Assembly: GCA_001648575.1 (NCBI GenBank)
Contig: LQXN01000066.1
Location: 62,001-126,000 of the forward strand
DNA length: 64,000 bases
DNA from: Sutcliffiella horikoshii DSM 8719
Lineage (GTDB): Bacteria > Bacillota > Bacilli > Bacillales > Bacillaceae_I
Reading direction: 5' to 3'
Shown: in pieces, positions 4,402 through 55,372 of the stretch
Numbering within the stretch: the stretch's first letter is position 1
Layout of the letters: each line of letters begins with the position of its first letter
The notes under the pieces: generated by a model
Database searches by the model: none
Told to the model about the DNA's origin: nothing
The model's input: the letters and a program-made list of their open reading frames with translations, nothing else
Translations under genes and position numbers: made by a program

Positions 4402-4430
4402 AGTGCCTTTCCTTCAAATGGAATGGCACT
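4402..4430. terminator. Left copy of the terminator hairpin at B element 1
   Basis: AGTGCCTTTCC (4402-4412) pairs with GGAATGGCACT (4420-4430) except for one T-T mismatch. No T run follows, because the B element starts directly at 4431. It matches the right copy at 4607-4635 at 25 of 29 positions. A perfect ancestral hairpin would explain both copies, each having lost one pair. Confidence 0.75.
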
Positions 4431-4606
4431 CAGACTGTTGACAAACTAAGAAATAGTTAAGTTATCTGTTGGAACAGTTGATTTTCGTTCCAGGCGCTTC
4501 GCTTTCCTGCGGGGTCTTACATGTCCCTTCCTCCCGCAGGAGTCTACGCTCCTTCCACTGCGATCAACTAGGGAATTTCATTATTTTAAGCTTTGTCTAC
4601 ACACTT
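4431..4606 (+). mobile_element. B element 1 (internally deleted)
   Basis: A 176-bp noncoding element that starts CAGACTGTTGACAAAC and ends GCTTTGTCTACACACTT. The core begins GTTGATTTTCGTTCCAGGCG and ends CACTGCGATCAAC, an imperfect long palindrome. Compared with other copies it lacks the central GGCGGTCC...CCTCCTC segment, between CTTTCCTGC and GGGGTCTTAC. It is flanked by two copies of the same terminator hairpin, between convergent genes. Confidence 0.8.
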
Positions 4607-4635
4607 AGTGCCATTCCTCTAAATGGAAGGGCACT
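4607..4635. terminator. Right copy of the terminator hairpin at B element 1
   Basis: AGTGCCATTCC (4607-4617) pairs with GGAAGGGCACT (4625-4635), with one A-G mismatch, and is followed by an ATTTTATTTTATT tract. It also lies directly after the stop codon of the minus-strand DUF2254 gene, so it can serve both convergent genes. Confidence 0.8.
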
Positions 4636-4639
4636 AATT

Positions 4640-5974
4640 TTATTTTATTAATAGTTTTTGATATTCCTTCCCCTGTCCAAGTGAAAACAATAGCTCCTTT
4701 AGGTTCCTGTTCAACCTTTCCATCTCCAGTTCGTAATAGGTTTCCTCCTTTATAGTTTCTGTCGTATGCTTTGTATATTTCCATATTGCTTTTTTGCGAA
4801 ATGTAGGAGAGTGGTCTGCAATTATTTTTAATACATGTATTATGGATGAGATAACATCTATGTCTATTTTTCCGTATCGCAGAATTGGTGAAAAAGCAAT
4901 ATCGAGATAATCGAAAAAGTCCGGTGTTTTTATAATCACTCGTAAATTCCTGTTTTTGTCATTAAAGTATGGTTGTGGGCCCTGCATGGATGCAAGCTTT
5001 GATAGCAAGGTCCCTAGTTGTTCTATGCAATGGACGGCTGTACTGGGATCATTTATACCTGAGGATAGTGCTCTTACCCCAATTTCAGTTACTTTTCTAA
5101 TTCCAAATTCAACATCCTCCAATGGTGCCCGGGAAATGGAAACGGTTATAAAAGATAGAAAAGAATTTTCATTTATTTTGTCACCTGATCCCCAAATTGA
5201 TAAAAGTGGTGTATGTTCATTAATGTAGTCGCCTTGCTGCCGTTCAACCCGCACGATACAATCAGCATCATATGCTTTCTTCACTAAAGCTTTTATATCG
5301 ATATACTGTACATATCCTGGTTCTTTACTCATGACTGTTATAGGTTCTTTAGTAGTGATATCTTGACTCTCCCAATCATCCCATGGTGCATCGTGAATGG
5401 AAGCGTCACTTTCTTCAAATAATTCTTCCATGCATTCCACCGTTTCAACCGTGATATTATGAAGTAAATTACTGACTTGTATCCATGTAGTGACATGTTG
5501 GATGAAAAAGACGAATACAATTAAGCATAAAATGGCAATAGCTACCGCAAACGATGGAACCAGGAAGAGTTGCTCTTCTGTCGTTTCCTTCAGGAACAAT
5601 AGCAGTATGATGCAATAGATGAACCCGGCGGTGAAAATTCCGAGGACTCTTTGTGTCGCATGGTCGGTAATGAAATTTTGCAGGGCTCTGGGTGAAAATT
5701 CTGAAAGGTATGTGGTCAAGACGACAAGAATGGTTGAAAATGTGATAGTAGTCATTGTTAACAACGAGGACGCTATGGAGCTGAGAATTGTCTGGGAAAG
5801 ACCTATATCAGAAAGGAATATCGCCGGTATATACTTCTCGGCTCCTTTATAGGAAAGAATATAATTATCAAGCAATAATGTACCAATTGCGAGTATGAAA
5901 GCCATTGTCCAGTAAAAAGAGGGCAAATACCAAAAACTTGTCCTTAAACGTAAAATACTGGCTGATCTAGCCAT
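4640..5974 (-). CDS. DUF2254-family membrane protein
   Basis: About 444 residues. Four membrane segments lie in the first 170 residues, with the conserved stretch SSIASSLLTMTTITFSTILV followed by a serine- and phenylalanine-rich SEFSPRALQNFI. A long soluble C-terminal part carries the family's SGINDPSTAVHCIEQLG motif. DUF2254 proteins are widespread predicted inner-membrane proteins of unknown function. The ATG at 5974 is preferred because GAAAGGG lies 8 nt upstream; a GTG at 5983 would sit directly on that site. The stop codon abuts the shared terminator of B element 1. Confidence 0.85.
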   Translation of the reverse strand: MARSASILRLRTSFWYLPSFYWTMAFILAIGTLLLDNYILSYKGAEKYIPAIFLSDIGLSQTILSSIASSLLTMTTITFSTILVVLTTYLSEFSPRALQNFITDHATQRVLGIFTAGFIYCIILLLFLKETTEEQLFLVPSFAVAIAILCLIVFVFFIQHVTTWIQVSNLLHNITVETVECMEELFEESDASIHDAPWDDWESQDITTKEPITVMSKEPGYVQYIDIKALVKKAYDADCIVRVERQQGDYINEHTPLLSIWGSGDKINENSFLSFITVSISRAPLEDVEFGIRKVTEIGVRALSSGINDPSTAVHCIEQLGTLLSKLASMQGPQPYFNDKNRNLRVIIKTPDFFDYLDIAFSPILRYGKIDIDVISSIIHVLKIIADHSPTFRKKAIWKYTKHTTETIKEETYYELEMERLNRNLKELLFSLGQGKEYQKLLIK

Positions 5975-6070
5975 GGCGAACACCCTTTCAAGAAAAAGTT
6001 ATTACAAGGAATGTGTAGAATCTTTTATAAAAATATGTTATAGTAACAAAGTTAAATTGAATAAAGTCTT

Positions 6071-6086
6071 ACGCCGATTGCGGCGT
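6071..6086 (+). repeat. Hairpin 5' of the preQ1 aptamer
   Basis: ACGCCG (6071-6076) pairs perfectly with CGGCGT (6081-6086) around ATTG, only four nucleotides before the preQ1 aptamer. It may be a 5' stabilising stem of the leader RNA. Confidence 0.5.
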
Positions 6087-6090
6087 CAGG

Positions 6091-6167
6091 AGAGGTTCTA
6101 GCAAATACCCTCTATAAAAAACTAAGGACAGATACCAAACTATATTCCTTAGGATATAGTTTTTTTA
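6091..6167 (+). promoter_or_regulatory. preQ1-I riboswitch controlling queCDEF
   Basis: AGAGGTTCTAGC (6091-6102) followed by ACCCTCT (6107-6113) and TATAAAAAACTAAGG is the preQ1-I aptamer: P1 hairpin, C-containing loop and A-rich tail. The terminator is ACTATATTCC with GGATATAGT and seven Ts, ending near 6167. CTAAGGA at the end of the aptamer is the perfect complement of TCCTTAG in the terminator loop and arm, so it can form an antiterminator. Ligand-stabilised folding of the tail would release TCCTTAG and allow termination. The mechanism is inferred from pairing and from characterised preQ1-I switches. It sits about 90 nt before queC, whose pathway makes preQ1. Confidence 0.93.
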
Positions 6168-6258
6168 TTTTTTCTGATGTTATGCGCTAGCCCTCATTAT
6201 TTTTGGTTAGTGCTTTTTTGTGAATAGAGATAGATTGTAAAAAAGGAGTGAAGACACG

Positions 6259-6930
6259 ATGAAGCAAAAGGAAAAAGCGATGGTCGTGTTCAGTGGAGGG
6301 CAAGACAGTACCACATGCCTAATATGGGCAATGAAGGAATTTGATGAGGTTGAAGCAGTAACCTTCCATTATGGCCAACGACACGAACTGGAAATTGATT
6401 GTGCTAAAAATATTGCAAAAGAACTTGGAGTAAACCACCGTATTCTAGATATGTCCCTGTTAGGACAACTGACTCCAAATGCTCTGACAAGAGATGATAT
6501 TGAAATTGAAGAAAAAGAAGGGGAATTGCCTAGCACATTTGTTGATGGTAGAAACCTTTTATTCCTTTCCTTTGCAGCTGTTGCCGCAAAGCAGATAGGA
6601 GCGAGACATATCGTGACTGGTGTATGTGAAACAGACTTCAGCGGATATCCTGACTGTCGTGATGTTTTCATTAAATCAATGAACGTGACATTGAATCTCT
6701 CTATGGATCATCCATTTGTCATACACACTCCATTGATGTGGCTGAACAAGGAGGAAACATGGAAGCTTGCTGATGATTTGGGTTCCTTGGAGTTTGTCAG
6801 GACCAAAACTTTAACCTGTTATAACGGAATCATTGCCGATGGGTGCGGCGAGTGCCCGGCATGTAAACTTAGAAAACGTGGATTAAATGATTACTTATCT
6901 ACAAAAAATAAAGGAGTTGTATCCTCATGA
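6259..6930 (+). CDS. queC: 7-cyano-7-deazaguanine synthase
   Basis: 223 residues. It converts 7-carboxy-7-deazaguanine to preQ0 with ATP and ammonia, in the cytosol. The N-terminal PP-loop [10 protein letters not shown] (about 11-20) binds ATP, and the C-terminal zinc knuckle appears as [19 protein letters not shown], giving the four expected cysteines. The length matches the family. AAAGGAGTG precedes the ATG. It is first in the queCDEF operon behind the preQ1 riboswitch, and its stop overlaps the start of queD. Confidence 0.97.
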
Positions 6931-7370
6931 TGCAACAGATTTACCCACAAGTTCAGCATGATTACTGCTATGAACTTAATAAAGACATGCATATAGCTGC
7001 TGCACACTATGTACCGTCAGATGCCGCAGGGAAGTGCAAGCAAATTCACGGTCATACCTACTTTGTCAATGTTACAGTTGCAGGTGATGAACTGGATGAG
7101 GCTGGCTTCCTTGTCAATTTTCAGGCGCTAAAGAAGCTTTTGCATGATAAATTTGACCATACGGTTCTAAACGAACATAAAGACGTATTCAATGACCAGG
7201 ATCCAAATTTTTTCCCTACGACGGAAGTGGTTGCAAGAACTATGTGGGAAACAATTGAGAACCATTTAAACTCCCTTTCTTCCAAACCTACCTGTCTTCA
7301 GGTGTTTGTAAGGGAGACTCCGACAAGTTATTGCTTGTACCGTCCAAAAAAGGGGAAGAAAAATGAGTGA
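6927..7370 (+). CDS. queD: 6-carboxy-5,6,7,8-tetrahydropterin synthase
   Basis: 147 residues. It converts 7,8-dihydroneopterin triphosphate to 6-carboxytetrahydropterin, step two of 7-deazaguanine synthesis. Zinc-binding histidines are visible in AAHYV (about residues 25-29) and in the [13 protein letters not shown] block (about 36-48), whose cysteine is the catalytic one. The FDHTVLNE and FPTTEVVA motifs are typical. The start codon ATGATG overlaps the queC stop by four bases, so translation is coupled; either ATG (6927 or 6930) may be used. The 3' end overlaps queE by eight bases. Confidence 0.96.
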
Positions 7371-8082
7371 ATTAATACCAGTACTTGAGATATTTGGTCC
7401 TACAATCCAAGGGGAAGGGATGGTCATCGGGCAGAAAACGATGTTTGTGCGAACTGCAGGATGTGATTATCGCTGCTCTTGGTGTGACTCTGCTTTTACC
7501 TGGGATGGCAGTGCAAAGGAAGATATTAAATTGATGTCCCCGGTTAATATTTTTGGCCAATTAAAAGATATTGGCGGGTCGGCTTTCAATCATGTAACCA
7601 TATCCGGAGGTAATCCTGCTCTACTTAAGAATATTGGAGCACTTGTCCAAATTTTACATGATAATAATATAAAAGTGGCCCTTGAAACCCAAGGAAGCAA
7701 GTGGCAGGACTGGCTTTATGATATTGACGACCTGACAATTTCGCCAAAGCCCCCAAGCTCACAAATGAATACCGATTTCACTATTTTAGATGACATCTTA
7801 AAAAGGGTGGACCTGGTTAATGTTTCACTTAAGGTGGTAGTTTTTGATGAAGCGGATTTGGCTTATGCGAAAAAAGTCCATCTAAGATATCAGGAAATTG
7901 CTTTTTATGTCCAAGTTGGAAATGAAGACACTACTACAGAAGAAGACGCTAAGCTTGTCAGCAATTTGTTAGGTAAATATGAATGGTTGATCGATCAAGT
8001 AATGAAAGATGATGAAATGAATAATGTCCGAGTTTTACCTCAATTGCATACATTAGTTTGGGGTAATAAGCGCGGAGTTTAA
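7363..8082 (+). CDS. queE: 7-carboxy-7-deazaguanine synthase (radical SAM)
   Basis: 239 residues. This radical SAM enzyme contracts 6-carboxytetrahydropterin to 7-carboxy-7-deazaguanine. The cluster-binding motif is CDYRCSWCD (CxxxCxxC, about residues 34-41), preceded by the substrate-binding [13 protein letters not shown]. The SGGNPALL motif follows, and SPKPPSS lies near residue 128. Length and motif order are those of the Bacillus form of QueE. The start lies inside the last codons of queD, after a GGGAAGAAAA ribosome site, and a 17-bp gap leads to queF. Confidence 0.95.
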
Positions 8083-8099
8083 TAAAGGAGAGAATAAAT

Positions 8100-8597
8100 A
8101 TGTCAGGAAGAAAAGATTCAGAATTGGAAGGTGTAACATTGCTTGGGAATCAAGGTACAAGCTATTTGTTCAACTATTCCCCGGATGTGTTGGAAACATT
8201 TGAAAACAAACACCCGAACAGGGATTATTTTGTAAAATTCAATTGTCCGGAGTTTACAAGTTTATGTCCGAAAACCAATCAGCCGGATTTCGCAACCATT
8301 TACATCAGCTATATACCAGGTGAGCTTATGGTAGAGAGCAAGTCCTTGAAGCTTTACCTTTTCAGCTTCCGAAATCACGGCGATTTCCATGAGGATTGCA
8401 TGAATATCATCATGAACGATTTGATTGAATTAATGGACCCTAGATATATAGAGGTATGGGGTAAATTCACCCCGCGTGGCGGAATTTCCATTGACCCTTA
8501 CACCAACTATGGAAAACCTGGCACTAAATATGAAGAAATAGCTCAGTACCGCCTCATGAACCATGACCTATATCCGGAAAAAGTCGATAATAGATAA
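8100..8597 (+). CDS. queF: NADPH-dependent preQ0 reductase
   Basis: 165 residues, the unimodular QueF form. It reduces the nitrile of preQ0 to preQ1 amine, the final step before insertion into tRNA. The active-site cysteine is in [14 protein letters not shown] (about residue 56) with the aspartate six residues on. The QueF signature [20 protein letters not shown] follows. AAAGGAG lies 8 nt before the ATG. The gene ends the que operon and is followed by the terminator that B element 2 occupies. Its product preQ1 is the ligand of the riboswitch 2 kb upstream, which closes a feedback loop. Confidence 0.97.
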
Positions 8598-8604
8598 GAC
8601 TTAA

Positions 8605-8624
8605 AGCACAATTAAGGATGTGTT
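8605..8624 (+). terminator. Left, degraded copy of the queF terminator hairpin
   Basis: This 20-nt segment (arms AGCACAATT and GGATGTGTT) matches the right copy at 9011-9030 in 16 of 20 positions. Its pairing is partly degraded to wobbles and one mismatch, and it has no T run. Its final TGTT runs into the element's CACAAAC end. Confidence 0.55.
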
Positions 8625-8803
8625 CACAAACCCATCTTTAGATTTGCACCTTCTTGTTGATCTTCGTTCCAGGCGCTTCGCTTTCCTGCGGGCGGTCCGG
8701 GAGCCTCCTCGGCTATGCCTGCGGGGTCTCCCATGTCTCTTCCTCCCGCGGTAGTGTAAGAGCCCTCCACTACGATCAACATGGGTTTTGCATATTCCTA
8801 AAG
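8625..8803 (+). mobile_element. B element 2a, left member of a tandem pair
   Basis: The core runs from TTGATCTTCGTTCCAGGCGC (8658 onward) to CACTACGATCAAC (8768-8780). The left end is shortened to CACAAACCC; the canonical TGTTGACAAA seems fused to the TGTT of the hairpin. The right end stops at CCTAAAG without the usual TTTGTCTACACACTG, and the next element begins at once. The inner helix here is GGGAG (8699-8703) with CTCCC (8728-8732). Confidence 0.75.
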
Positions 8804-9010
8804 ATTGTTGACAAACCTTAAAATAGTAAGGTTATCTGTTGGAACAAGTTGATTTCCGTTGCAGGAGTTTCGCTTTCCAGCGGGCGGTCCGTAAGCCTCC
8901 TCACTTCGTTGCGGGGTCTTACCAGTCCCTTCCTCCCGCAGGAGTCTACACTCCTTCCACTACAATCAACAGGGAATTTATAACTTGAAAAGAGCTTTGT
9001 CTACACACTG
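8804..9010 (+). mobile_element. B element 2b, right member of a tandem pair
   Basis: A nearly complete element beginning ATTGTTGACAAACC and ending GCTTTGTCTACACACTG. The core starts GTTGATTTCCGTTGCAGGAG. The inner helix is GTAAG (8891-8895) with CTTAC (8918-8922). The right end abuts a perfect terminator hairpin. Confidence 0.8.
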
Positions 9011-9038
9011 AACACAACCAAGGTTGTGTTTTTTTTAA
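9011..9038 (+). terminator. Right copy of the queF terminator hairpin
   Basis: AACACAACC (9011-9019) pairs perfectly with GGTTGTGTT (9022-9030) and is followed by a run of T to about 9036. Confidence 0.85.
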
Positions 9039-9094
9039 TACTAAAATCCTCCCCTTTTGAGAATAATAACCAAAAACTTAAAAGGAGAATCCAA

Positions 9095-10108
9095 TTGACC
9101 AATCATAATCCCGGACTGACCTGTGCCGAAAACAGCACCTTATGGGTATTGTATTTGAACAACTCCATGACAACGTGTGTACTTAGATACTTTTTAGAAT
9201 CTGTACAGGATTTAGAAATAAGAAAAGTTATTGCCAAAGCTTATGATATAGCGACAAATAATGAAAACGAACTTAAGGCAGTTTATTGGAAAGAACAACT
9301 TCCATTGCCAATAGGTTTCTCTGAAAATGATGTAAATCTAAAAGCCCCAAGATTATTTTCTGACACCTTCATGCTAGCCTACATACTCCAGATAGCGAAA
9401 GTTGGATTGGTGACATATGGTGCTAGCTTAGGTTCTGTTGCAAGAAAGGATATAAGAAAGCTCTATTCTGCCTTCCTGCAACGAACAATGGACCTATACG
9501 AGGATACAACTGAAATACTTCTGAATAAAGGATTATATTTAAAGAAACCATATTCCGTTAATCCCCGAAAAGCTGAATTGGTAGATGATCATAAATATTT
9601 CAGTGGGGTTAACCCTTTTGTTAGTAAAAGGCCGCTGAACACCATTGAAGTAACCCACTTATGCCTCAATATTGAAACTAATCAAATTGGAAAGGAATTA
9701 TGTACTGCTTTTTCCCAAACGGCCGTCCAGGCGGAAGTTCGCGAATTTATGAAAAAAGGAAAGCAATTGGCGTACAGTCATATAAAGAGCTTTATTGAAC
9801 TGTTGATGAAGGATGATATTCAAACTCCTTTGTCTGCTGATATTTCCATAACAGATTCGACGATACCACCATTCTCTGACAAGTTGATGATGTTCCATAT
9901 TAGCTTAATGGTTGCTGCCGGCATTGGAAATTATGCGACAGCATCCTCTGCCAGCCAAAGAACTGATATTGCATTTAATTATGAAAAGCTTTCTTCAGAA
10001 TCTGCATTGCTGGCGAAATCTGGAGCAGATATCATGGTGACTCATCGCTGGATGGAAAAACCCCCATCCACTGCGGACCGGGATGTACTTTCTAAGAAGA
10101 GGGAATAG
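9095..10108 (+). CDS. DUF3231 family protein (spore-coat F-like)
   Basis: 337 residues from a TTG at 9095, chosen because AAAAGGAG lies 8 nt upstream. Two related halves are visible. The first has ENSTLWVLYLNNSM then LPIGFSENDVN and APRLFSDTFMLAYI; the second has TNQIGKELCTAFSQTAVQ and PPFSDKLMMFHISLM. This duplicated ferritin-like/CotF-like helical architecture is the DUF3231 family, found in spore formers and probably spore-associated; no biochemical function is known. The C-terminus ends in a basic, disordered tail. It stands alone between the queF terminator and a reductase gene. Confidence 0.85.
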   Translation: MTNHNPGLTCAENSTLWVLYLNNSMTTCVLRYFLESVQDLEIRKVIAKAYDIATNNENELKAVYWKEQLPLPIGFSENDVNLKAPRLFSDTFMLAYILQIAKVGLVTYGASLGSVARKDIRKLYSAFLQRTMDLYEDTTEILLNKGLYLKKPYSVNPRKAELVDDHKYFSGVNPFVSKRPLNTIEVTHLCLNIETNQIGKELCTAFSQTAVQAEVREFMKKGKQLAYSHIKSFIELLMKDDIQTPLSADISITDSTIPPFSDKLMMFHISLMVAAGIGNYATASSASQRTDIAFNYEKLSSESALLAKSGADIMVTHRWMEKPPSTADRDVLSKKRE

Positions 10109-10164
10109 TTGTAGAAAGCGCCTGAATTTGGTATAAAAGAAATAACAAAGGCAGAGGAGAATCT

Positions 10165-10836
10165 ATGATGGCCCTAAAAAGAAGTGCATTAATAATTGGC
10201 TCAACAGGCTTGATAGGAGCACATTTGAAAGAAGAGATTTTGGGAAATCCAGATTATGATACTCTCACAACCCTAATAAGAAGTCACACTCAAGAAGAAC
10301 ATGAAAAATTAACCGAAGTTAAAATCGATTTTGATACCCTCCATATTAATCAGAATTATTTTCAAGTGGATGATTTATATATCTGCCTGGGGACAACTAG
10401 AAAAAAAGCTGGCTCAAAAGAAAATTTCCGTAAAGTGGATTATGGATATGTAGTGGAAGCTGCAAGGCTTGGCAAGGAGAATGGCGTCAAGAGATTAGCT
10501 GTGGTTTCAGCTATCGGGGCTGATGAAGAATCCAGTTTTTTTTACAATCAGGTAAAAGGGGAGATGGAAAAAGAGGTAGCTGAATTGGGAATTCAGTCCA
10601 CTTATTTTTTTAGACCTTCTTTGCTTCTTGGGGAAAGGAAAGAGTTGAGATTAGGTGAGAAAGTTGGAGAAGTACTAGGGAGGGCTGTGCAACCCATACT
10701 GAGGGGGAGATGGGAGAAGTATAGATCCATACATGGGAAAGAAGTTGCCAAGGCTATGGTGAAATTTTTGAAAAATGGAAGAAATGGAGTCCATGTAGTG
10801 GAATCAGACATGATTGCCAAAATAGGAAAACTTTGA
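10165..10836 (+). CDS. NAD(P)-binding epimerase/TIP30-like oxidoreductase
   Basis: 223 residues with an N-terminal Rossmann motif GSTGLIGAHL (about residues 12-21), then YICLGTTRKKAGS where the family has its second cofactor loop. VVSAIGADEESSFFYNQVKGEMEKEV follows the atypical-SDR pattern with YNQVKG near residue 128; here YxxxK is retained as Y-N-Q-V-K. The C-terminal half has FFRPSLLLGERKE. This matches the atypical short-chain dehydrogenases related to HTATIP2/TIP30 and bacterial NAD-dependent epimerases; the substrate is unknown. The GAGGAG ribosome site fits either of two adjacent ATGs. Confidence 0.85.
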   Translation: MMALKRSALIIGSTGLIGAHLKEEILGNPDYDTLTTLIRSHTQEEHEKLTEVKIDFDTLHINQNYFQVDDLYICLGTTRKKAGSKENFRKVDYGYVVEAARLGKENGVKRLAVVSAIGADEESSFFYNQVKGEMEKEVAELGIQSTYFFRPSLLLGERKELRLGEKVGEVLGRAVQPILRGRWEKYRSIHGKEVAKAMVKFLKNGRNGVHVVESDMIAKIGKL

Positions 10837-10906
10837 AATAGTACTATTGGTTCGTTTTCATTTTAACAAAGCAGGGAATAAGTATAAAAAAATAGGAGTG
10901 TCCTCT

Positions 10907-11221
10907 ATGAGCCAAACGAAAGAGTTTCGGAGAATTCGTAAATCTGGCCATTTAACCATTCCCAAGTCAATTCGTGAGCAATTGCAAATTTCCGATGGCG
11001 ATGTATTGATGATTATGGAACAACCTCTTGGATTAGTAATGAAACCGATTGATGAAGACCATATTTATAATGAATCTATAGTTTCCAACAATGGAAAAGT
11101 CAATATTCCCATTGAGATCAGGCGTAACTTGAACATAAGTGAGGATACCCATTTTTCCGTCAAACTGGATAAGGAAAGGGAAGCTGTCGTTCTGGAAATT
11201 TTAGAGGAGGAAACAGGCTAG
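10907..11221 (+). CDS. Double AbrB/SpoVT-type DNA-binding protein
   Basis: 104 residues with two swapped-hairpin AbrB motifs in tandem. The first is about residues 6-46 (RRIRKSGHLTIPKSIREQL) and the second about 55-98 (SIVSNNGKVNIPIEIRRNL). Each shows the alternating pattern with (T/N)IP.(S/E)IR. Most AbrB-like transition regulators and antitoxins carry one such domain and dimerise; a single chain with two could form an intramolecular pair. No toxin gene adjoins it. The start at 10907 is preferred over an in-frame codon at 10847 because ATAGGAGTG lies 8 nt upstream. A terminator follows. Confidence 0.85.
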   Translation: MSQTKEFRRIRKSGHLTIPKSIREQLQISDGDVLMIMEQPLGLVMKPIDEDHIYNESIVSNNGKVNIPIEIRRNLNISEDTHFSVKLDKEREAVVLEILEEETG

Positions 11222-11236
11222 CGGTACGAATAAAAG

Positions 11237-11273
11237 GCTCAACGGAAATAAATGATTTCCATTGAGCTTTTTT
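11237..11273 (+). terminator. Intrinsic terminator after the AbrB-like gene
   Basis: GCTCAACGGAAA (11237-11248) pairs with TTTCCATTGAGC, with one mismatch, followed by six Ts. Confidence 0.85.
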
Positions 11274-11365
11274 GAATGGTGATGAAATTGTTCGGCTGTC
11301 TAAGATAGTTCATCATATAAATGCATTTTTTAATTAATCTCATTTCTGGAAAAAAGAGCTTACCT

Positions 11366-11548
11366 TTATAACCCCTTTACAATCTTATAATTTTTATGGT
11401 TTACTACCGTACGCTGTTCTAATTCTAAGTCGCGATAGTTGTTCATATAAGTCAGGTCTACTATAACAGAGTTTTCATTTACTTTTTCTACTACTCCTTG
11501 CAGACCTTCACGAAATTCGATGATATTCCCTACTTCAGCTTTTTTCAA
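11366..11548 (-). CDS. ykvS: YkvS-like DUF2187 protein
   Basis: 60 residues, MKKAEVGNIIEFREGLQG onward, with alternating strands ENSVIVDLTYMNN and VVNHKNYKIV. This matches the DUF2187/YkvS family of small KOW-like beta-barrel proteins in Bacillaceae. Function unknown. The start follows GGGGGAGATAT. In B. subtilis ykvS lies near the que and ykv genes, so the region is partly collinear. Confidence 0.85.
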   Translation of the reverse strand: MKKAEVGNIIEFREGLQGVVEKVNENSVIVDLTYMNNYRDLELEQRTVVNHKNYKIVKGL

Positions 11549-12100: not shown

Positions 12101-12140
12101 ACAGGCAGCGGAGGATGTACCTGTCCTCGCTACCTGTTTT
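12101..12140 (+). terminator. Intrinsic terminator after the 64-residue gene
   Basis: ACAGGCAGCGGAGGA (12101-12115) pairs with TCCTCGCTACCTGT with two mismatches, followed by a T run near 12137-12141. Confidence 0.8.
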
Positions 12141-18769: not shown

Positions 18770-18783
18770 GTAGAACACATAAA

Positions 18784-18820
18784 AACGAGAAGAACCCCAC
18801 CCGGGTCCTTCTCGTTTTTA
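18784..18820. terminator. Left copy of the bidirectional terminator at B element 3
   Basis: AACGAGAAGAACCC (18784-18797) pairs with GGGTCCTTCTCGTT, with one mismatch. A runs and T runs lie on the two sides, so it can stop transcription from both directions. The right copy at 19030-19065 has the same arms with a different loop and one changed base. Confidence 0.8.
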
Positions 18821-19029
18821 TGTGTAGACAAAGTTCTTTTTGAGTTATAAATTCCCTGTTGATCGTAGTGGAAGGAGCGTAGACTCCTGCGGGAGGAAGG
18901 GACAGGTAAGACCCCGCAGGCGTAAGCCGAGGAGGCTTACGGACCGCCCGCTGGAAAGCGAAGCTCCTTGAACGAAGATCAACTGTTTCAACAGATATCT
19001 TAACTAATTTTTAGTTTGTCAACAGTCTG
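18821..19029 (-). mobile_element. B element 3 (inverted orientation)
   Basis: A full element reading on the minus strand. On the plus strand it starts TGTGTAGACAAAG and ends GTTTGTCAACAGTCTG. The core runs from GTTGATCGTAGTGGAAGG to AACGAAGATCAAC. The inner helix is CTTAC/GTAAG type with the small hairpin GGC-TTAC-GCC at its tip. It lies between two convergent small membrane-protein genes. Confidence 0.85.
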
Positions 19030-19065
19030 AAACGAGAAGAACCCCATCAGGGTCCTTCTCATTTT
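19030..19065. terminator. Right copy of the bidirectional terminator at B element 3
   Basis: AAACGAGAAGAACCC (19030-19044) pairs with GGGTCCTTCTCATTT with two mismatches. It is the outer end for the minus-strand gene at 19094-19249. Confidence 0.75.
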
Positions 19066-19093: not shown

Positions 19094-19249
19094 CTAAACT
19101 TGATTTAATACCCAGATTAAAAATCCACCGACTATAAGTAGTGAAATAGCATGTAGAACAAAAGAACCGATGAAGTCCCTTAAAACAATGAAAAAATGAA
19201 ACTGACTCTTTTTGTTATTGCGTACAATTCTTCTCGCTCTTGTATCCAT
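19094..19249 (-). CDS. Small single-span membrane protein, 51 residues
   Basis: Starts MDTRARRIVRNNKKSQFHFF and ends GGFLIWVLNQV. A basic N-terminal tail is followed by a long hydrophobic segment (about 19-50) that could form one membrane span and a half. GTAGGAGTGAAGTG provides a strong ribosome site 7-8 nt upstream. Its 3' end faces the B element 3 terminator. No family recognised. Confidence 0.65.
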   Translation of the reverse strand: MDTRARRIVRNNKKSQFHFFIVLRDFIGSFVLHAISLLIVGGFLIWVLNQV

Positions 19250-19477
19250 CACTTCACTCCTACACACATGAGGAAATTTGTAAGTATATTATACAAAATA
19301 TTCAAACAAATATTAAGTGATAAAGTAGAATTTTGTAAAAAAAACTAATTATATGTACTCTAGTGTCATTTTACCATAACTAATGAACAAGTATTAATAA
19401 TTTTATCGGTATAATGTTCACGATGTTTAGAGTGATAATTTCCTAAGTCGGTTCAGGGAAAAAATGAAAATACAATA

Positions 19478-28070: not shown

Positions 28071-28097
28071 AGAGCCCTTGATCAAGATCAGGGCTCT
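28071..28097. terminator. Left copy of the terminator hairpin at B element 4
   Basis: AGAGCCCTTGATC and GATCAGGGCTCT pair almost perfectly. The right copy at 28292-28319 differs by only one extra base in the loop. No T run follows this copy. Confidence 0.85.
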
Positions 28098-28291
28098 CTG
28101 ACTGTTGACAAAGCCCTAAATATTTTTAAATTTGCATCATGCTGTTGATCTTCGTTCCAGGCGCTTCGCTTTTCGCGGGCGGTCCGGAAGCCTCCTCGGG
28201 CTTACGCCCTGCAGGGTCTTCCCTGTCCCTTCCTCCCGCAGAAGTCTGCGCGCCTTCCACTACGATCAACACAGGTTTTGCATATACACTG
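28098..28291 (+). mobile_element. B element 4
   Basis: A 194-bp element beginning CTGACTGTTGACAAAG and ending GCATATACACTG, with a short deletion before the right end. The core runs from GTTGATCTTCGTTCCAGGCG to CACTACGATCAAC. The inner helix is GGAAG (28186-28190) with CTTCC (28218-28222), and the tip hairpin is GGGC-TTAC-GCCC. It is nearly identical to B element 6 over about 170 bp, although the flanking terminators are unrelated. Confidence 0.85.
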
Positions 28292-28321
28292 AGAGCCCTT
28301 GATCAATGATCAGGGCTCTTT
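28292..28321. terminator. Right copy of the terminator hairpin at B element 4
   Basis: AGAGCCCTTGATCA pairs with TGATCAGGGCTCT, followed by TTTC. The stop codon of the minus-strand hydrolase (28303-28305) lies inside this hairpin. Confidence 0.85.
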
Positions 28322-45205: not shown

Positions 45206-45220
45206 ATAGATTGATAGAAA

Positions 45221-45251
45221 GGGCGACTGCCTGATAGGAGCAGTCGCCCTT
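45221..45251. terminator. Left copy of the hut terminator at B element 5
   Basis: GGGCGACTGC (45221-45230) pairs with GCAGTCGCCC across CTGATAGGA. The 31-nt copy at 45702-45732 is identical, including the asymmetric loop. Only the right copy is followed by a T run. Confidence 0.9.
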
Positions 45252-45701
45252 AGACTGTTGACAAACTCTAATCATCTTTAGAATTGCATTTTCTTGTTGA
45301 TCTTCGTTCCAGGCGCTTCGCTTTCCAGTGGGCGGTCCGTAAGCCTCCTCGGCTTTGCATGAGGGCACTGAAAAAACAAAAAACTAATCTTATTTTGAAT
45401 TTCTAGCTGTTGATTGGAGCAATAGGCGAAGACTCCTGCGGGGGGATAGCGACAATCTTGAGACCCCGCAGGGCGCAGCCCGAGGAGGCTCAAGATTGTC
45501 GCCACGCGGAAAGCGTAGCCGTTTGCGGAAATCAACAGCGGTATGAAACAGATAACTAAAATATTGTACTTTTTCAGTGGCCTTGCTTTGCCTGCGGGGT
45601 CTTACTTGTCCCTTCCTCCCGCAGGAGTCTGCGCGCCTTCCACTACGATCAACATGGGTATTACATGTTCCTGAAGATTCAAGACTTTATCTACACACTG
45701 A
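45252..45701 (+). mobile_element. B element 5, interrupted by a nested repeat
   Basis: The left part begins AGACTGTTGACAAAC and runs to CCTCCTCGGCTTTGC. The right part resumes with TTTGCCTGCGGGGTCTTAC and ends TTTATCTACACACTGA. The outer inner-helix is GTAAG/CTTAC. Removing the nested 214-bp element restores a canonical B element. The flanking hairpins are identical, so this is the best-preserved site. Confidence 0.85.
45366..45579. mobile_element. Nested MITE-like repeat, type C (CACTGAAAAA ends)
   Basis: A 214-bp element with inverted ends CACTGAAAAA (45366-45375) and TTTTTCAGTG (45570-45579). Its core, read on the minus strand, matches the core of the type A element at 181-367, including the inner stem CGACAATCTTGA. 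It sits inside B element 5. CTTTGC occurs on both sides and may mark a target duplication. No transposase. Confidence 0.7.
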
Positions 45702-45738
45702 GGGCGACTGCCTGATAGGAGCAGTCGCCCTTTATTTA
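45702..45738. terminator. Right copy of the hut/ykwC shared terminator
   Basis: Identical to the left copy for 31 nt, followed by TTTATTTATT. It lies just after the minus-strand ykwC stop, so it serves both directions. Confidence 0.9.
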
Positions 45739-45742
45739 TTAT

Positions 45743-48779: not shown

Positions 48780-48975
48780 AAGGGAGAACAAGGGTGGGAC
48801 AAGAATATAATAGGGGAAAAGTGCTAATCCTTAAAATAATATACCGCCTAGTTGTTGGAATCCAGCGCAACCAATGGCAAACCATCTGTATTACTTTACA
48901 GAAAATTCCCTATACATTTTCCTTAAAGGATAGTATCATAGGAGACTAATCTTTGAAATAGGAGTAATAAAAAAC

Positions 48976-50319
48976 ATGAAACAGCATGAACAATGGACAT
49001 CAAAAGTCGGCTTCATATTAGCAGCAGCGGGATCGGCAATCGGTCTCGGGGCCATTTGGAAATTTCCTTATATGGCTGGAATGAACGGTGGAGGGATATT
49101 TTTCCTCTTGTTTATCCTCTTTACACTCCTGATTGGAGCACCGATGATCTTGGCGGAGTTTATTATAGGAAGATCTACACAAAAGGATGCCATAACTGCA
49201 TATAAAGTGTTGGCAAAGAATTCTAAATGGCATTACATAGGAATCCTTGGTGTAGGGGCTTCTTTCATCCTCCTTTCTTTTTATAGTGTGGTTGGTGGTT
49301 GGATTGTTACATATTTAGGGAAGAGCATCACTGGCGGATTATCACAATTCACCCTTGAACAATATGGGGGGTTGTTTGATCAGGCCATAGCAAATCCCGT
49401 TCAGGTGTTGATAGCCCAATTTATATTTTTAGGAATTACGATATGGGTTGTGCAAGCAGGGGTTCAAAGCGGAATTGAAAAAGCCAGTAAAATATTAATG
49501 CCATTATTATTCATCATTTTTATTGTATTACTGGTTAGATCTCTCACGTTAGACGGCGCAATGGACGGTGTGCGTTTCTTCTTACAGCCAGATTCTTCCC
49601 TTATCACGCCTAATACATTTTTAATGGCATTGGGAATGGCCCTTTTCTCTTTAAGTGTAGGTATTTCCATAATGGTCACCTATAGTTCTTATCTGGAAAA
49701 AGGAGAAAATTTAGTTCGGTCGGCAGGATCGGTGGTGGGACTTAACATCATCATTTCTTTACTTTCGGGTCTTGTCATCTTCCCGGCGGTATTTGCATTG
49801 GGATTACAGCCTGATGAAGGACCGGGCTTGGTGTTTGTCGTGCTTCCGGCAGTTTTTGACCAATTGCCGCTTGGCGGTATTTTCTTGACCCTGTTCTTGG
49901 TACTGCTTTTATTTGCGACCTTGACCTCTGCCTTTTCCATTTTGGAGATTATTGTTGCAGTCATTGTAAAGGATAATCAAGACAAAAGAAGAAGAATTGC
50001 AATCATAGCCGGTTTCATCATTTTTGTAATGGGAATTCCTTCAGCACTTTCATTTGGTTTACTCTCACATATTAACATTGGGGAACTAATTATTTTTGAT
50101 GCTGCAGACTTCCTAGTGAGTAATATCGCATTGCCTCTTGGTTCATTTTTGATATCAATATTCGTTGGGTGGCGAATTCCTAAAAATATTTTGGAAGATG
50201 AGTTCTTCCAAGGCTCAACAGTGAAGAAAGGCTTGTTTCAAGTATGGTATTACTTGATCAGGTATGTGATCCCATTTGCTATCCTCTTGGTATTCTTTCA
50301 ATCCATCGGGTTATTTTAA
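48976..50319 (+). CDS. Sodium-dependent transporter, NSS family
   Basis: 447 residues with about eleven membrane helices. The first helix carries the sodium- and substrate-binding [20 protein letters not shown] (about 11-30), a hallmark of neurotransmitter-sodium symporters. ATAGGAG lies before the ATG. Substrates of this bacterial branch (YhdH-like) are usually amino acids. A terminator follows at once. Confidence 0.92.
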
Positions 50320-50326
50320 TAGCTAT

Positions 50327-50357
50327 CAATAATCGTCGGACAACTTGTCCGGCGATT
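50327..50357 (+). terminator. Terminator after the NSS transporter gene
   Basis: AATCGTCGGACA pairs with GTCCGGCGATT, with one wobble, and a T run follows. Confidence 0.85.
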
Positions 50358-50632
50358 TTTTATTAGGCCATCTTTGAGCAAATTCCGATTTCCAATTACA
50401 TGCCAGCATGATGAAAAGAGCTTTTTGTGGGCACACCAATTTCATTCTATAGGATAAACAAGGAACCTATTACATAATTTCCTATTGGGAAACTTGGTAC
50501 CCAGGGCAGCTAATAACCCCACTATTTTCTCTCCATTTTCCCAATATGATTTTCCTGTATCAGATGGTAAACTCTTGTTAATAGTTCTTAATAGTGAGAA
50601 TTATTAAAAATCTTATTCAAGGAGTGAATCTA

Positions 50633-51778
50633 TTGAAGAAGTGGATGAAGAGTTTTTCAGTTATACTTATTGCAATATTGGCTTTCTCGTTAGCTTTTGG
50701 AACTGCTCAGGCAGAGTCTTCTAATCCGAATGCTAGTGTAAAGAAAGAATACTTAATTGGGTTTGCAAAAGGAAACAAGGCAAGTGCACAGACCTCCCAA
50801 AATCTGGTTACAGCAGCAGGGGGAGAAGTTCAACACACATTCCAATACATGGATGTAGTGGAAGTTTCGTTACCTGAAAAAGCTGCAGAAGCATTGAAGA
50901 AGAATCCTAACATAGCATTCGTAGAGGAAAACGTAGAGGTTATGGCGACTGCCCAAACAGTACCTTGGGGCATCCCGCATATCAAAGCAGACAAAGCACA
51001 TGCTGCCGGTGTGACAGGAAGCGGAGTGAAAGTGGCAATCCTTGATACAGGGATCGACGCCAATCATGCAGACTTAAATGTAAGAGGCGGAGCAAGTTTT
51101 GTGGCAGGTGAGCCGAATGCCCTTCAAGATGGAAATGGACACGGAACTCACGTGGCCGGTACGGTTGCCGCATTGAATAATTCAACTGGCGTTCTAGGGG
51201 TCGCTTACAACGCAGACCTTTATGCGGTAAAAGTTCTTAGCGCTTCAGGTAGTGGGACTTTAAGTGGCATCGCACAAGGTATTGAATGGTCCATTGCAAA
51301 TGGAATGGATGTAATCAATATGAGTCTTGGTGGAAGCTCTGGGTCTACTGCACTCCAACAAGCTTGTAATAATGCCTACAATAGAGGCATTGTTGTAATT
51401 GCTGCTGCTGGGAATTCCGGCTCTTCAGGAAATCGCAACACTATCGGGTACCCTGCAAGATATAGTTCAGTAATCGCAGTGGGAGCAGTGGATTCCAATA
51501 ACAACCGCGCTTCTTTCTCCAGTGTTGGAAATGAGCTGGAAGTAATGGCGCCGGGTGCTAATATCTTGAGCACGACTCCTGGTAATAACTATGCATCCTT
51601 CAACGGAACGTCCATGGCAGCTCCACATGTTGCAGGAGCAGCAGCATTGATAAAAGCAAAATATCCTAGCATGACAAATGTCCAAATTCGTGATCGTTTA
51701 AGAAATACGGCTACAAACCTTGGTGATCCTTTCTTTTATGGAAACGGAGTAATCAATGTAGAAAGTGCTTTACAATAA
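50633..51778 (+). CDS. Secreted subtilisin-family serine protease
   Basis: 381 residues from TTG 50633, chosen since CAAGGAG lies 8 nt upstream. A signal peptide ends TAQA-ES (about 27). An I9 propeptide (about 35-105) is followed by a mature enzyme that probably begins [13 protein letters not shown]. The catalytic triad is Asp in AILDTGID, His in [10 protein letters not shown] and Ser in [15 protein letters not shown], with the oxyanion Asn in [10 protein letters not shown]. The mature part resembles alkaline subtilisins of the BPN'/Savinase group. No prodomain-independent accessory domain. A terminator follows. Confidence 0.96.
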
Positions 51779-51806
51779 ATAATTATCCCCCCTGTAACAC
51801 CAATAA

Positions 51807-51840
51807 AAAATGCCTGTCCCTTTAACGGGGCGGGCATTTT
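51807..51840 (+). terminator. Terminator after the subtilisin gene
   Basis: AAAATGCCTGTCCC and GGGGCGGGCATTTT pair with one mismatch. Confidence 0.8.
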
Positions 51841-51997
51841 GAGTTTCTCCTGGAAAAAACCACTCTCATACCCTAAACTTTATGCTACCTTTAAAAGGAC
51901 AAATACCAAAAAAATATTTTTTCCCTAAAGTTGAAACTATTTCTAGTCAGTATGCATCTTAAATTTAGAACAAATAGAAAAAGGGGGTGAGCATGCT

Positions 51998-52567
51998 TTG
52001 CACCTAGTAGACAGACTGAAAAACAAAGAAGAATCCGCATTGCAGGAACTAATGTCCCTTTATGGAGACTATCTTTTCCGGACAGCGTTCCTGCTATTAA
52101 AGGATAAACAAGCCTGTGAAGAAGTCGTACAGGACACCTTCATTACAGCGTACGAAAAAATTAATCAATTGGTTGAAGAAGAAAAATTGAAAAGCTGGCT
52201 CACCTCGATTACCATCAATCGCTGCAGGATGCTAATGCGGAAATGGAGTTGGAAGAATATCCTCTTAAATTTTGATTGGACAGAACGGGTTCAAGGGGAT
52301 GAAAAAGTTGATGGTCCTGAGACGAGACTTATTGTAAATTTTGAAAATAAATCCCTCAGTGAAGCGATACAGAAATTGGATTACAAATATCGGGAAGTAA
52401 TTATTCTTTATTATTTCAATGAATTAAAAGTCAGTGAAATCGCATTGTTGTTGAAGATGGCGGAAAGTACGGTAAAATCCAGACTGAAACGGGGCCGGAC
52501 TTATTTGAAGGATATTTTGGCGAAAGGGGAGGATGGAAGTGTCTCTGAAAGAAAATCGAACTTTTAA
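51998..52567 (+). CDS. ECF-type RNA polymerase sigma factor
   Basis: 189 residues with canonical regions 2 (EEVVQDTFITAYEKINQL, about 44-61) and 4 (YREVIILYYFNELKVSEIALLLKMAESTVKSRLKRG, about 131-166), unlike the degenerate fused copies at 32.8-37 kb. The TTG start lies 9 nt after GGGGGTGAG. It overlaps the next gene, a short membrane protein, by 35 bp; that gene is likely its membrane regulator. Confidence 0.9.
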   Translation: MHLVDRLKNKEESALQELMSLYGDYLFRTAFLLLKDKQACEEVVQDTFITAYEKINQLVEEEKLKSWLTSITINRCRMLMRKWSWKNILLNFDWTERVQGDEKVDGPETRLIVNFENKSLSEAIQKLDYKYREVIILYYFNELKVSEIALLLKMAESTVKSRLKRGRTYLKDILAKGEDGSVSERKSNF

Positions 52568-52877
52568 GGATAAATTGAATCAGGAACTTGCAGAGGTCCG
52601 TTTTAGCGGACATGGAAAGGTGTTAAGTAAAACACATCCAAAGAGCTATAGAGAGAAGCTTTCATCCATTTGGAATAAGGAATTGCATATTCCTGTTTTA
52701 CCTATTGTGTTGGCAGCTGGATTGATTATGACGACGGTTAGTATGAAAAGCACCCTGTTTGACCGCGCTCCAAATCTAATGGCAGACCGGGAAATGATTG
52801 AATTTGCAGGTTACACCTATTGGAAAGATGACTTTGAAAGAGCGGTGAAACTTCATGAAAATAAGAATCAAAATTAA
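52533..52877 (+). CDS. Putative single-span partner of the ECF sigma factor
   Basis: 114 residues with an N-terminal charged part (1-50), one hydrophobic segment (about 53-70) and an outer tail. No zinc-finger CxxC is visible, so the common ZAS anti-sigma fold is not apparent. Its place, overlapping the sigma gene and the following gene, is typical of an anti-sigma factor, but this is inferred. Starts at an ATG in GGAAGTG-type context. Confidence 0.65.
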   Translation: MEVSLKENRTFKDKLNQELAEVRFSGHGKVLSKTHPKSYREKLSSIWNKELHIPVLPIVLAAGLIMTTVSMKSTLFDRAPNLMADREMIEFAGYTYWKDDFERAVKLHENKNQN

Positions 52878-55089
52878 GCACCTTGTTCTGACTGTAACGG
52901 CTTTGGCATTATTCGTCCCTATTTTTCTTTTTTTAATTCAACCTCAGCTGACCATTTACATGGCTGAGAGGCAAATGGCAAAAGGGGAGCCGGCAGGAAA
53001 AGAAAGAATACTAGATCTTTTGGATAACGGAAATATCTTTTCAGAGCAACGGTTCTCTCTTATAAGGGAATACATGATAAATGATTCGACATCCTTGGAT
53101 TATGATGTTTATGTTGGAACAACCTCGACATACTGGTCTGACGTTGATCAGGCTAAAATAAAATTCTCCATGGAGGAACGATTGCCTTATCTTCTAGAGT
53201 ATATTGAAACGGGGCCGATAGACGGTTATATGGAATCGGCTGCAGGTGAAGCGGCAAATCATTATCATTTTGAAGGAGATTGGATAAAGGGCGATAAAGT
53301 GCTGCAAGTGGCATTGGACAGAGGGAACAGTACGTACTTCAGATCCGACTTGGCAACAAAGCAGATCGAACTCGCAGTTCGGAATGGAGAATATGAGCGT
53401 GCCTTAAGCTATATTGAAAAGTTCTATAAAATCGTATCAGAAGACGACATATACACAAATGCAGTGGCGGTAAAAGCACATGCAGAAATTCTTTTGATCA
53501 ATGGGGAGTATCAAAAGGCACTTGCCATTGTTGAGGAAGCCTTGTCGGATTTATATACAAAGCACGAAGAAAACCACGATATAGAAAGCAGAGATAATGA
53601 AGAATCTCCCGTAGAAAAGCGGCTCAGAGATATTAAAGACAGAATAAAAGATGGGGGATACACATTCAATACAGTAAGTGGAAAAGTGTTTAAAAACGAA
53701 AGGGGAAAGTCGCCTTTTGAAGGAATCGGTGTCTTCCTCCGAGAGAAAAATGCCCTGCATTACAGTATTTCTTTTGGGCCAGGTGAACATTACCAAGCGG
53801 TGACGGACAAAAATGGTGAATACAAGTTCCATAATGTCCCTCCTGGAAGTTATCAGCTGTTTTTTGGTTTTACCTTCGATCAAATAGACGGTTATGCACT
53901 ATCCATGCCTTCCAATCCGTGGATTGAAGTGGAAGACGGGGACGTAATAGCCTATGATTCAATTATTAATCCGTTGATTGAAATTTATCACCCGGTAAAT
54001 TCTGAAGAGATTATAAGAGATGATATTCAATTTTCATGGGAACCTGTAGAAGGAGCGGCCTATTACAGCATCAGTGTTGGAAGGGAAATAGAAGGCGGGG
54101 CGATTTCCTATCATCTGAAAAGTGGCATCAAAACACCAGAGTTTACCGTAACAAAGGAAGAACTTCATTATTCTCAAGGGGGAATCCAATTTACTGAGGA
54201 AAGTGATTGGGAGGAAATAGACTACAACTCGGTACTTGGCTTTGCGGATCCGAGCGGCCGCTTTTTCTGGAATGTGCAGGCTCATAATGAAGATGGCGAT
54301 CTCCTTACACAAAGTCAGGGATATAGATTAGGAGAAGATACATTTGGAAACTTGCCCATGTTCTATCTGAAAAATCGAGAGCTGACAGAAGCAGATAAAG
54401 TATTGCTAAAGAACAAGCCTGAGGAAGCATTGGGAATGTATAAAGAAAGCTTTGAGAATAATCCAGATGATTTGCACAGTCTACTCATGATCAGTAAAAT
54501 TATCGGTGTCGAATCAGATGTGCACAATAACTCGTCAAAAGACTTGGCAATCCCTTACCTTGAGGAGCTGGCAAGGAAAGCGCCGAGTGAATCCATTTTC
54601 AGTGATATTTTAGAGTATCATTATGAAAAGAAGGATTGGCACTCCTATGATATGTGGTATGGAGAATACCAAAAAATCAAGGGAGATATACTGGATGAAT
54701 ATATAGAAGGAATGCGCGCAAACGCCCTCATGAAACAAGGGAAGTACACGGAGGCAAGAACCCAATTTCAACGGGTGATGGAGCAAGGATATCGACATGA
54801 GCAGATAGGGGAATGGATTGCTTTAGAAATATTTCTTGGAACCCCGCTGGAAAGAGTGGAAGCCTTGGGGAAAAAATATCCTGAGCAAGGTATCTATGAC
54901 ACGAGGATTGACTGGAAGAGATTAGTCGGAAATATCATACACGAACAAGTAGAATATGATGATTATAATGTTGAATTAAAGAAAGTGATGGAATGGCTGG
55001 TAAAAGAGGAAAACAAACAAATAGAATCGTGGAAAACATCTACGGATAAGGTGGAGTTAAAGAGATTTGTAGACGAGTTGAGGAAGTAG
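52855..55089 (+). CDS. Large membrane-anchored protein with TPR-like and CarboxypepD_reg-like domains
   Basis: 744 residues. An N-terminal membrane helix (about 9-29) is followed by an extracellular region. Helical repeats (about 90-250) read like tetratricopeptide repeats. A beta domain (about 270-330) with the KTxDKNGEYKFHNVPPGSYQL-like pattern (here VTDKNGEYKFHNVPPGSYQL) matches carboxypeptidase-regulatory-like domains, and a second beta region around 375-480 is fibronectin-like. C-terminal helical repeats (about 510-740) follow. It is co-transcribed with the ECF sigma factor and a small membrane protein, so it may be the regulated output or sensor. Function unknown. Confidence 0.75.
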   Translation: MKIRIKIKHLVLTVTALALFVPIFLFLIQPQLTIYMAERQMAKGEPAGKERILDLLDNGNIFSEQRFSLIREYMINDSTSLDYDVYVGTTSTYWSDVDQAKIKFSMEERLPYLLEYIETGPIDGYMESAAGEAANHYHFEGDWIKGDKVLQVALDRGNSTYFRSDLATKQIELAVRNGEYERALSYIEKFYKIVSEDDIYTNAVAVKAHAEILLINGEYQKALAIVEEALSDLYTKHEENHDIESRDNEESPVEKRLRDIKDRIKDGGYTFNTVSGKVFKNERGKSPFEGIGVFLREKNALHYSISFGPGEHYQAVTDKNGEYKFHNVPPGSYQLFFGFTFDQIDGYALSMPSNPWIEVEDGDVIAYDSIINPLIEIYHPVNSEEIIRDDIQFSWEPVEGAAYYSISVGREIEGGAISYHLKSGIKTPEFTVTKEELHYSQGGIQFTEESDWEEIDYNSVLGFADPSGRFFWNVQAHNEDGDLLTQSQGYRLGEDTFGNLPMFYLKNRELTEADKVLLKNKPEEALGMYKESFENNPDDLHSLLMISKIIGVESDVHNNSSKDLAIPYLEELARKAPSESIFSDILEYHYEKKDWHSYDMWYGEYQKIKGDILDEYIEGMRANALMKQGKYTEARTQFQRVMEQGYRHEQIGEWIALEIFLGTPLERVEALGKKYPEQGIYDTRIDWKRLVGNIIHEQVEYDDYNVELKKVMEWLVKEENKQIESWKTSTDKVELKRFVDELRK

Positions 55090-55099
55090 TAATAGAGGA

Positions 55100-55124
55100 A
55101 AAGGAACGCCAGGAGCGTTCCTTT
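55100..55124. terminator. Left copy of the terminator hairpin at B element 6
   Basis: AAAGGAACGC (55100-55109) and GCGTTCCTTT (55115-55124) around CAGGA. The right copy has identical arms with loop ACGAA. Confidence 0.85.
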
Positions 55125-55343
55125 CAGTGTGTAGACAAAATTATTTTATCTTTAAGATATGCAAAACCTGTGTTGATCGTAGTGGAAGGCGCGCAGACTT
55201 CTGCGGGAGGAAGGGACAGGAAGACCCCGCAGGGCGTAAGCCCGAGGAGGCTTCCGGACCGCCCGCGAAAAGCGAAGCGCCTGGAACGAAGATCAACAGC
55301 AGGATGCAAATTTAAAAATATTTAGGGCTTTGTCAACAGTCTG
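55125..55343 (-). mobile_element. B element 6 (inverted orientation)
   Basis: A complete 219-bp element. On the plus strand it starts CAGTGTGTAGACAAAA and ends GCTTTGTCAACAGTCTG, which is the canonical pair of ends. The core and inner helix (GGAAG/CTTCC) are nearly identical to B element 4. Confidence 0.88.
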
Positions 55344-55372
55344 AAAGGAACGCACGAAGCGTTCCTTTTTCT
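55344..55372. terminator. Right copy of the terminator hairpin at B element 6
   Basis: AAAGGAACGC (55344-55353) and GCGTTCCTTT (55359-55368) around ACGAA, followed by a T run. Confidence 0.88.

Follow-up and report, generated by a model that had tools for sequence, protein, structure and literature searches.

Insertion of IS1182-family elements at hairpins is already in print. According to the parts of Wan et al. (2017; PMC5678879) drawn on here, IS1272 replaces hairpins, all or part of the hairpin is removed, and target duplication is absent. These parts also report that for some older IS1272 copies the target is not an inverted repeat, treat the IS1182-family transposase as a DDE enzyme, and cite Siguier et al. 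for some IS1182 members that target palindromes. Excerpts of PMC4923244 place TnSha1/IS1272 in hairpins, 5/7 of which were confirmed as terminators, and state that the hairpin is deleted. IS1182 is among the families over-represented between convergent genes in the portions of PMC9208149 used here, and those of PMC3196728 describe one IS1182 element with 4-bp repeats. A rule of whole-hairpin duplication is not described in the portions of PMC10969869, PMC9208149 and PMC3196728 covered, and a literature search, which took in few subscription journals and does not prove absence, found no report of such a rule. We found whole-hairpin duplication only as a drawing from 2017, pathway b in Fig. 13 of PMC5678879, where it is offered as an alternative for IS1272.

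The insertions that prompted this study come from Sutcliffiella horikoshii and were met in the window, the whole stretch of 64,000 nucleotides that was analysed. The first-pass annotation of this DNA knew of no described system with such a rule; this has to be corrected, since hairpin targeting has been published for IS1272, a member of the same family (PMC5678879 and PMC4923244). As far as these parts go, IS1272/TnSha1 is similar to our elements in being assigned to the IS1182 family, in using hairpin targets of unrelated sequence, and in having been explained by a cruciform model. It differs in that its hairpin is deleted, duplication is absent, and its major transposase has 548 aa, compared with about 450 aa here. 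At our loci the stem-loop is not replaced; the whole hairpin is duplicated in 67/71 IS copies and in 87/95 rows of miniature elements (MITEs). Group IIC introns also insert beside terminator hairpins, are RNA-based, and are not known to leave a target duplication. They were rejected as a candidate; an Rfam scan of the window at gathering thresholds lists only a PreQ1 riboswitch and no group II intron. The riboswitch (6086-6131) lies upstream of a gene run including a queF-like gene (8100-8597) and is ordinary.

MITE copies in the window and in the genome

The features at the six loci of the window are as follows; hairpins carry no strand.

Site A, 4402..4430, left hairpin copy (direct reading and flank alignment)
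Site A, 4431..4606, plus strand, MITE of 176 bp (flank alignment)
Site A, 4607..4635, right hairpin copy (flank alignment; single close homologue in relatives L174 and L175)
Site B, 8605..8624, left hairpin, decayed, about 16/20 (flank alignment)
Site B, 8625..9010, plus strand, MITE whose left end is truncated; another sequence resembling a left end lies inside it at 8801 (flank alignment)
Site B, 9011..9030, right hairpin with a T run after it (flank alignment)
Site C, 18783..18817, hairpin copy (flank alignment)
Site C, 18818..19029, minus strand, MITE of 212 bp (flank alignment)
Site C, 19030..19064, second hairpin copy (flank alignment)
Site D, 28071..28097, left hairpin (flank alignment)
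Site D, 28098..28291, plus strand, MITE of 194 bp (flank alignment)
Site D, 28292..28319, right hairpin (flank alignment)
Site E, 45220..45250, left hairpin, 31/31 (flank alignment)
Site E, 45251..45700, plus strand, long MITE of 450 bp (flank alignment)
Site E, 45701..45731, right hairpin (one homologous hairpin in 10/15 relatives)
Site F, 55100..55124, hairpin copy (flank alignment)
Site F, 55125..55343, minus strand, MITE of 219 bp (flank alignment)
Site F, 55344..55368, second hairpin copy (flank alignment)

All six loci read in the first-pass annotation as having a hairpin on both sides were recovered by flank alignment. The true left-right pairs score 12, 19, 21, 25, 29 and 31, and the best of the 30 mismatched left-right pairs of the six sites scores 10 (mean 6.1). 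Five of the six are unmistakable duplicates of 25-35 bp: among them the hairpins are 29 bp at site A (score 21), 35 bp at site C (29), 27/28 bp with one extra loop base at site D (25), and 25 bp with identical arms at site F (19). Site B is decayed and is the weakest of the six (score 12), and only CACAAACCC is left of its truncated left end. Within the element at site E there seems to be a second unit, inversely oriented. A lone left-end-like sequence with 2 mismatches lies at 57663-57677, with no right end within 1.3 kb. The interior of the MITE (4480-4570 in the window, and other copies), GTTGAT..CGTTCCAGGCGCTTCGCTTTCC..GATCAAC, has inverted ends of its own and may be a separate repeat captured between IS-type ends. 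The earlier count of five of six sites between convergent genes holds only when the 57-aa minus-strand ORF at 19094-19267 counts as a gene, and falls to 4/6 when it does not.

The left-end 14-mer occurs 154 times with at most one mismatch in the 4.68-Mb assembly, versus 2 occurrences for a reversed control. The first 100 of these 154 matches, all exact, were taken together with the window, which gave 109 distinct left ends (at most two mismatches); because it was built in this way, the sample is biased toward intact left ends. A right end was found inside 1.3 kb for 95/109, and 14/109 were unpaired. In these 95 rows the end-to-end distance is mostly 207-221 bp. The element is thus a non-autonomous one of ~210 bp that is short, lacks a transposase gene and has ends in common with an IS, as expected of a MITE. 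When the 60-bp flanks were aligned, the median score was 23 for true pairs versus 7 in 8930 mismatched pairs, which bears out the expectation that left and right hairpins match better than a shuffled control. Scores of at least 13 were reached by 91/95 rows versus 1.1% of the 8930 controls, and scores of at least 16 by 85/95 rows versus 0.18%. The 91 include L082, which scores 14, yet its duplicate does not abut the element. L015 scores 12, the row at window 8801 is the inner end of site B, and L029, which has a hairpin on one side only, is palindromic and therefore counted twice.

An anchored ungapped duplication of at least 15 bp was present in the 87 rows mentioned above, and 31 of these are perfect. 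The duplicates mostly abut the element ends and are stem-loops, with a median RNA folding energy of -14.7 versus -2.4 kcal/mol for shuffles. Comparison of left-right with mismatched flanks revealed that the hairpin sequence is alike within a locus and not between loci; the earlier view that the hairpin is unrelated between loci and is not part of the element is therefore upheld. At four loci of this genome (L024, L028, L044, L073), adjacent elements have a common hairpin, so that three hairpins bracket two elements, and the duplicated hairpin seems to have been reused as a target. The MITE left end is abundant in 4/16 genomes of the genus (G000 145, G016 61, G010 56, G011 39; others 0-5). This pattern is a lineage-specific burst.

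Related insertion sequences and their target habits

The MITE ends are shared with a family of related IS. The typical IS ends are CAGACTGTAGACAAA...TTTGTCTACAATCTG, of which the MITE is identical at 14/15 positions on the left and 13/15 on the right; on visual inspection, no likeness of the MITE interior to the IS was noticed. These IS are 1498-1845 bp long and encode a transposase of about 450 aa, and usually 12-15 of 16 end positions match as inverted repeats. The size range of the IS1182 family is 1.3-1.95 kb. L109 and L111 have a single long ORF per element, and an intact relative in L284 is annotated as IS1182 family. The genome itself has a broken copy of 1498 bp, found via DUF772 and DDE_Tnp_1_6 matches; its ends are CAGACCGTAGACAAA...TTTGTCTACAAGCTG, and the hairpin duplicated on its flanks has partly decayed. 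Four separate pieces of it match the NCBI IS1182 model NF033551 with E values from 4e-8 to 1e-40, each below the whole-protein cut-off of 270 bits.

We searched 18 genomes of the family with the last 131 residues of the broken copy. The nearest open copy, in G009, is 92% identical over the query and has a 449-aa frame and a 30-bp perfect duplication; its protein is identical to a protein on a Sutcliffiella horikoshii plasmid, which by itself would make Sutcliffiella the probable genus of the window. G001 has a 68% copy with a 22-bp duplication, and G013 has four 50% copies with duplications of 20-27 bp. G010 and G016 gave no match to this query. Two short pieces matched in G011, where the loci end close to the match and an intact copy is possible. 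With the same query, G000 has the broken copy only and no intact related transposase, and for this reason the driver of the MITEs is judged by the similarity of the ends. On this basis the MITEs would be miniature non-autonomous derivatives of the IS1182-family IS, mobilised by its transposase. The first-pass annotation set the pattern apart from that of most DDE transposases; this is right for the length of the duplication and wrong for the enzyme, as the related IS encodes an IS1182-family transposase, a DDE enzyme according to the part of PMC5678879 used here.

The autonomous copies follow the same rule. We took the best 80 of 500 confirmed loci, found with a hairpin-type query in named genomes, by name all Bacillus relatives; strict end calling found both ends in 75 (5 without a right end) and enough flank in 71 (4 without flanks). 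A stem-loop duplication of 19-42 bp with at most two mismatches is present in 67/71 and is perfect in 64, and the flanks have a median score of 25 versus 7 for mismatched pairs. The four misses are L212 and L213, with doubtful ends, and L253 and L277, with two different hairpins. Plasmid records with 42-100% identity showed perfect stem-loop duplications in 11/14: Sutcliffiella, Klebsiella, two Providencia, Alkalihalophilus (ISBspe1), Aminobacter, Rhizobium, Acetoanaerobium, Staphylococcus agnetis and two Enterococcus faecium copies. Ten of these 11 belong to other hosts, among them Alphaproteobacteria, Enterobacterales and Clostridia. Among the remaining three, L283 and L288 have two different hairpins, and the ends of L282 (ISEfa7) were not resolved. 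ISEfa7 and ISBspe1, whose transposases are about 59% and 49% identical, resemble our elements in that their copies L317 and L307 have perfect 20-bp duplications; they differ in being autonomous and from other genera, and L283, with its two different hairpins, is another ISEfa7 copy.

Other IS1182-like elements have other habits. ISCfr1-type members share the IS1182-family annotation and terminal inverted repeats with our elements; they differ in having only 27-31% identity and, if the end is put at G, 4-bp duplications in 7/7 examined, some of which can also be read as 6 bp. Two further groups come from the same bacterial family as the window. One, a 522-aa type found in the Sutcliffiella genomes G005 and G009 (L113, L117), has no duplication and is likened to IS1272, whose own sequence stood outside the comparison. 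In the other, L114, L118, L121, L125 and L126 have 9-10-bp duplications that are GGACCTGTCC- or GGACAGGTC-like; L122, whose duplication is unclear, was put in this group by likeness. No ORF was obtained from L119. A tree of 46 transposases places the 35 rows with hairpin duplication on one side of a branch with support 95/96, the seven 4-bp rows stand apart with support 98/97, and the 522-aa type is a separate branch. These supports are to be read with the facts that rows were picked with labels known, hairpin rows were chosen for having the duplication, two of the four groups consist of just two long-branched rows, and the programme itself gives a long-branch warning. L210 (no ORF over 400 aa), L125 (its ORF lost to a script overlap rule), L309 and L316 are outside the tree.

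Empty orthologous sites

To survey empty sites, orthologues of the genes next to the MITEs at A, D, E and F were located in the same genus. At site E, 10/15 relatives (L128-L137) have one recognisable homologous hairpin shortly after the gene, and the sequence conserved among them starts within a few tens of bases after this hairpin. Site A has one close homologue in each of the two relatives listed above and one diverged hairpin in most others. At site F, one AAGGA(A/G)CG-type hairpin was seen by eye in L144-L153, some imperfect, and a 700-bp scan recognises 6/10 of them. Thus, the single-hairpin empty sites predicted in the first-pass annotation were seen at A, E and F.

The wider scan covered 700 bp downstream of the gene; L180 and L304 were too short to judge. 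At the own sites, which served as a positive control, it found element-end pairs at 4/4 and the hairpin pair at 3/4 (A, E, F). An earlier 260-bp scan was a poor control, because it recognised the known hairpin pair at just 1/4 occupied own sites. In relatives, element-end pairs were found by the 700-bp scan at E in 0/15, at F in 0/15, at A in 1/13 (G016) and at D in 1/15 (G016). Two similar hairpins were found at E in 0/15, at A in 0/13, and at F in 1/15, which is an unrelated tandem array (L157); the result for hairpin pairs at D carries no weight because the scan misses the own pair there. The G016 element at site D has the same orientation as that in the window, and G010 has a partial element there, so the insertion at site D may predate these species. 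At site A, the G016 element has one truncated hairpin.

Geometry of the duplication and a model of insertion

The geometry was analysed in 86 distinct MITE targets and 67 IS targets. The duplication is the whole stem-loop, 18-39 bp in MITE and 19-42 bp in IS targets, with one broad hump around 25. A fixed-length duplication was dropped, as lengths run from 18 to 42 bp and the 67 IS copies alone show 18 distinct lengths (19-42 bp). For IS1182, the direct repeats in the ISfinder tables reportedly cover a very long range, and the curators may know of long repeats. The centre of the duplication is exactly the dyad of the hairpin. In register, the outer six positions form a mean of 5.64 Watson-Crick pairs in IS (n=67) and 4.97 in MITE targets (n=86), versus only 1.3-1.94 when the frame is shifted by 1 to 4. 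The first duplicated base is A in 73/86 MITE and 56/67 IS targets, and the edge lies 1-3 positions beyond the first G:C pair in 71/86 and 60/67, which puts the joining point in an A/T collar around the base of the G:C stem. A pair at position -1 occurs in 78% of IS targets and 52% of MITE targets; pairing can thus often be extended outward, and the cut does not just mark where the possible stem ends. At five loci (L253, L277, L283, L288, L082) the two ends adjoin two different hairpins, and these copies resemble recombinants between copies or outcomes of one-ended events.

From these data we propose, at a probability of about 80%, that an IS1182-type transposase targets hairpins, that joining at a cruciform followed by repair duplicates the whole stem-loop, and that the MITEs are derivatives of such elements. 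The transposase would pick short, near-perfect hairpins, mostly with terminator-like A/T runs, and the palindrome would extrude as a cruciform. Each 3' end of the element would then be joined to the 5' foot of the hairpin, one per strand, and repair would turn both single-stranded hairpins into full duplex copies. Such repair predicts a duplication of exactly one whole stem-loop with most A/T runs outside. Cruciform insertion with gap repair had been suggested in the first-pass annotation, and it gains support from the empty sites, the flank identity and the dyad-centred variable length (18-42 bp). It appears to be the shape of the DNA, and not a fixed cutting distance, that determines how long the duplicated target is. 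We lean slightly toward a further step, in which this DDE clade, found in Bacillota and Proteobacteria, would be a structure-specific integrase that cuts both strands symmetrically at the feet of the cruciform, as a Holliday-junction resolvase does, and reads length from secondary structure.

The near-perfect dyads would also suit a symmetric transposase dimer that recognises a linear double-stranded palindrome and makes ordinary staggered cuts, with no cruciform. The other IS1182-like branches, which duplicate 4 or 9-10 bp, some of it palindromic, need no extrusion either. However, whereas the duplication should have a set length if a rigid complex acted on B-DNA, the distance from cut to dyad forms a single broad hump between about 9 and 21 bp. 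This makes the linear palindrome unlikely. Somewhat less probable again is joining to a single-stranded hairpin, at a replication fork or an R-loop at a terminator, with the second strand made later. Terminators do form hairpins in RNA and in transient single-stranded DNA, and in 76/86 MITE and 62/67 IS targets the sequence just outside is rich in A or T on one side or both, which fits intrinsic terminators. Yet DDE enzymes join both strands of duplex, and orientation relative to the A/T run is unbiased: among the 153 targets the run is on the right side only in 40 and on the left side only in 42, so the element appears not to read the direction of transcription. That the element carries its own terminator, or that two hairpins pre-existed without any target duplication, would explain why hairpins adjoin the element exactly and is nonetheless highly improbable, given hairpins that are alike within loci and unlike between them and the single hairpin at empty sites A, E and F.

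With about 150 natural insertions and the empty sites, duplication of the whole stem-loop moves from a hypothetical pathway of 2017 to an observed pattern. The pattern suggests unusual behaviour of a DDE enzyme, in which the length of the duplication is set by the shape of the target. Since the target modes split along the IS1182 tree, their cause in the protein is directly searchable. The insertions are also a natural record of sequences that form hairpins or cruciforms in cells. Each insertion would double the terminator and so make a new target, of which L024, L028, L044 and L073 seem to be instances. Termination would survive the insertion, and because the terminator is kept and not broken, this is a plausible low-cost insertion strategy.
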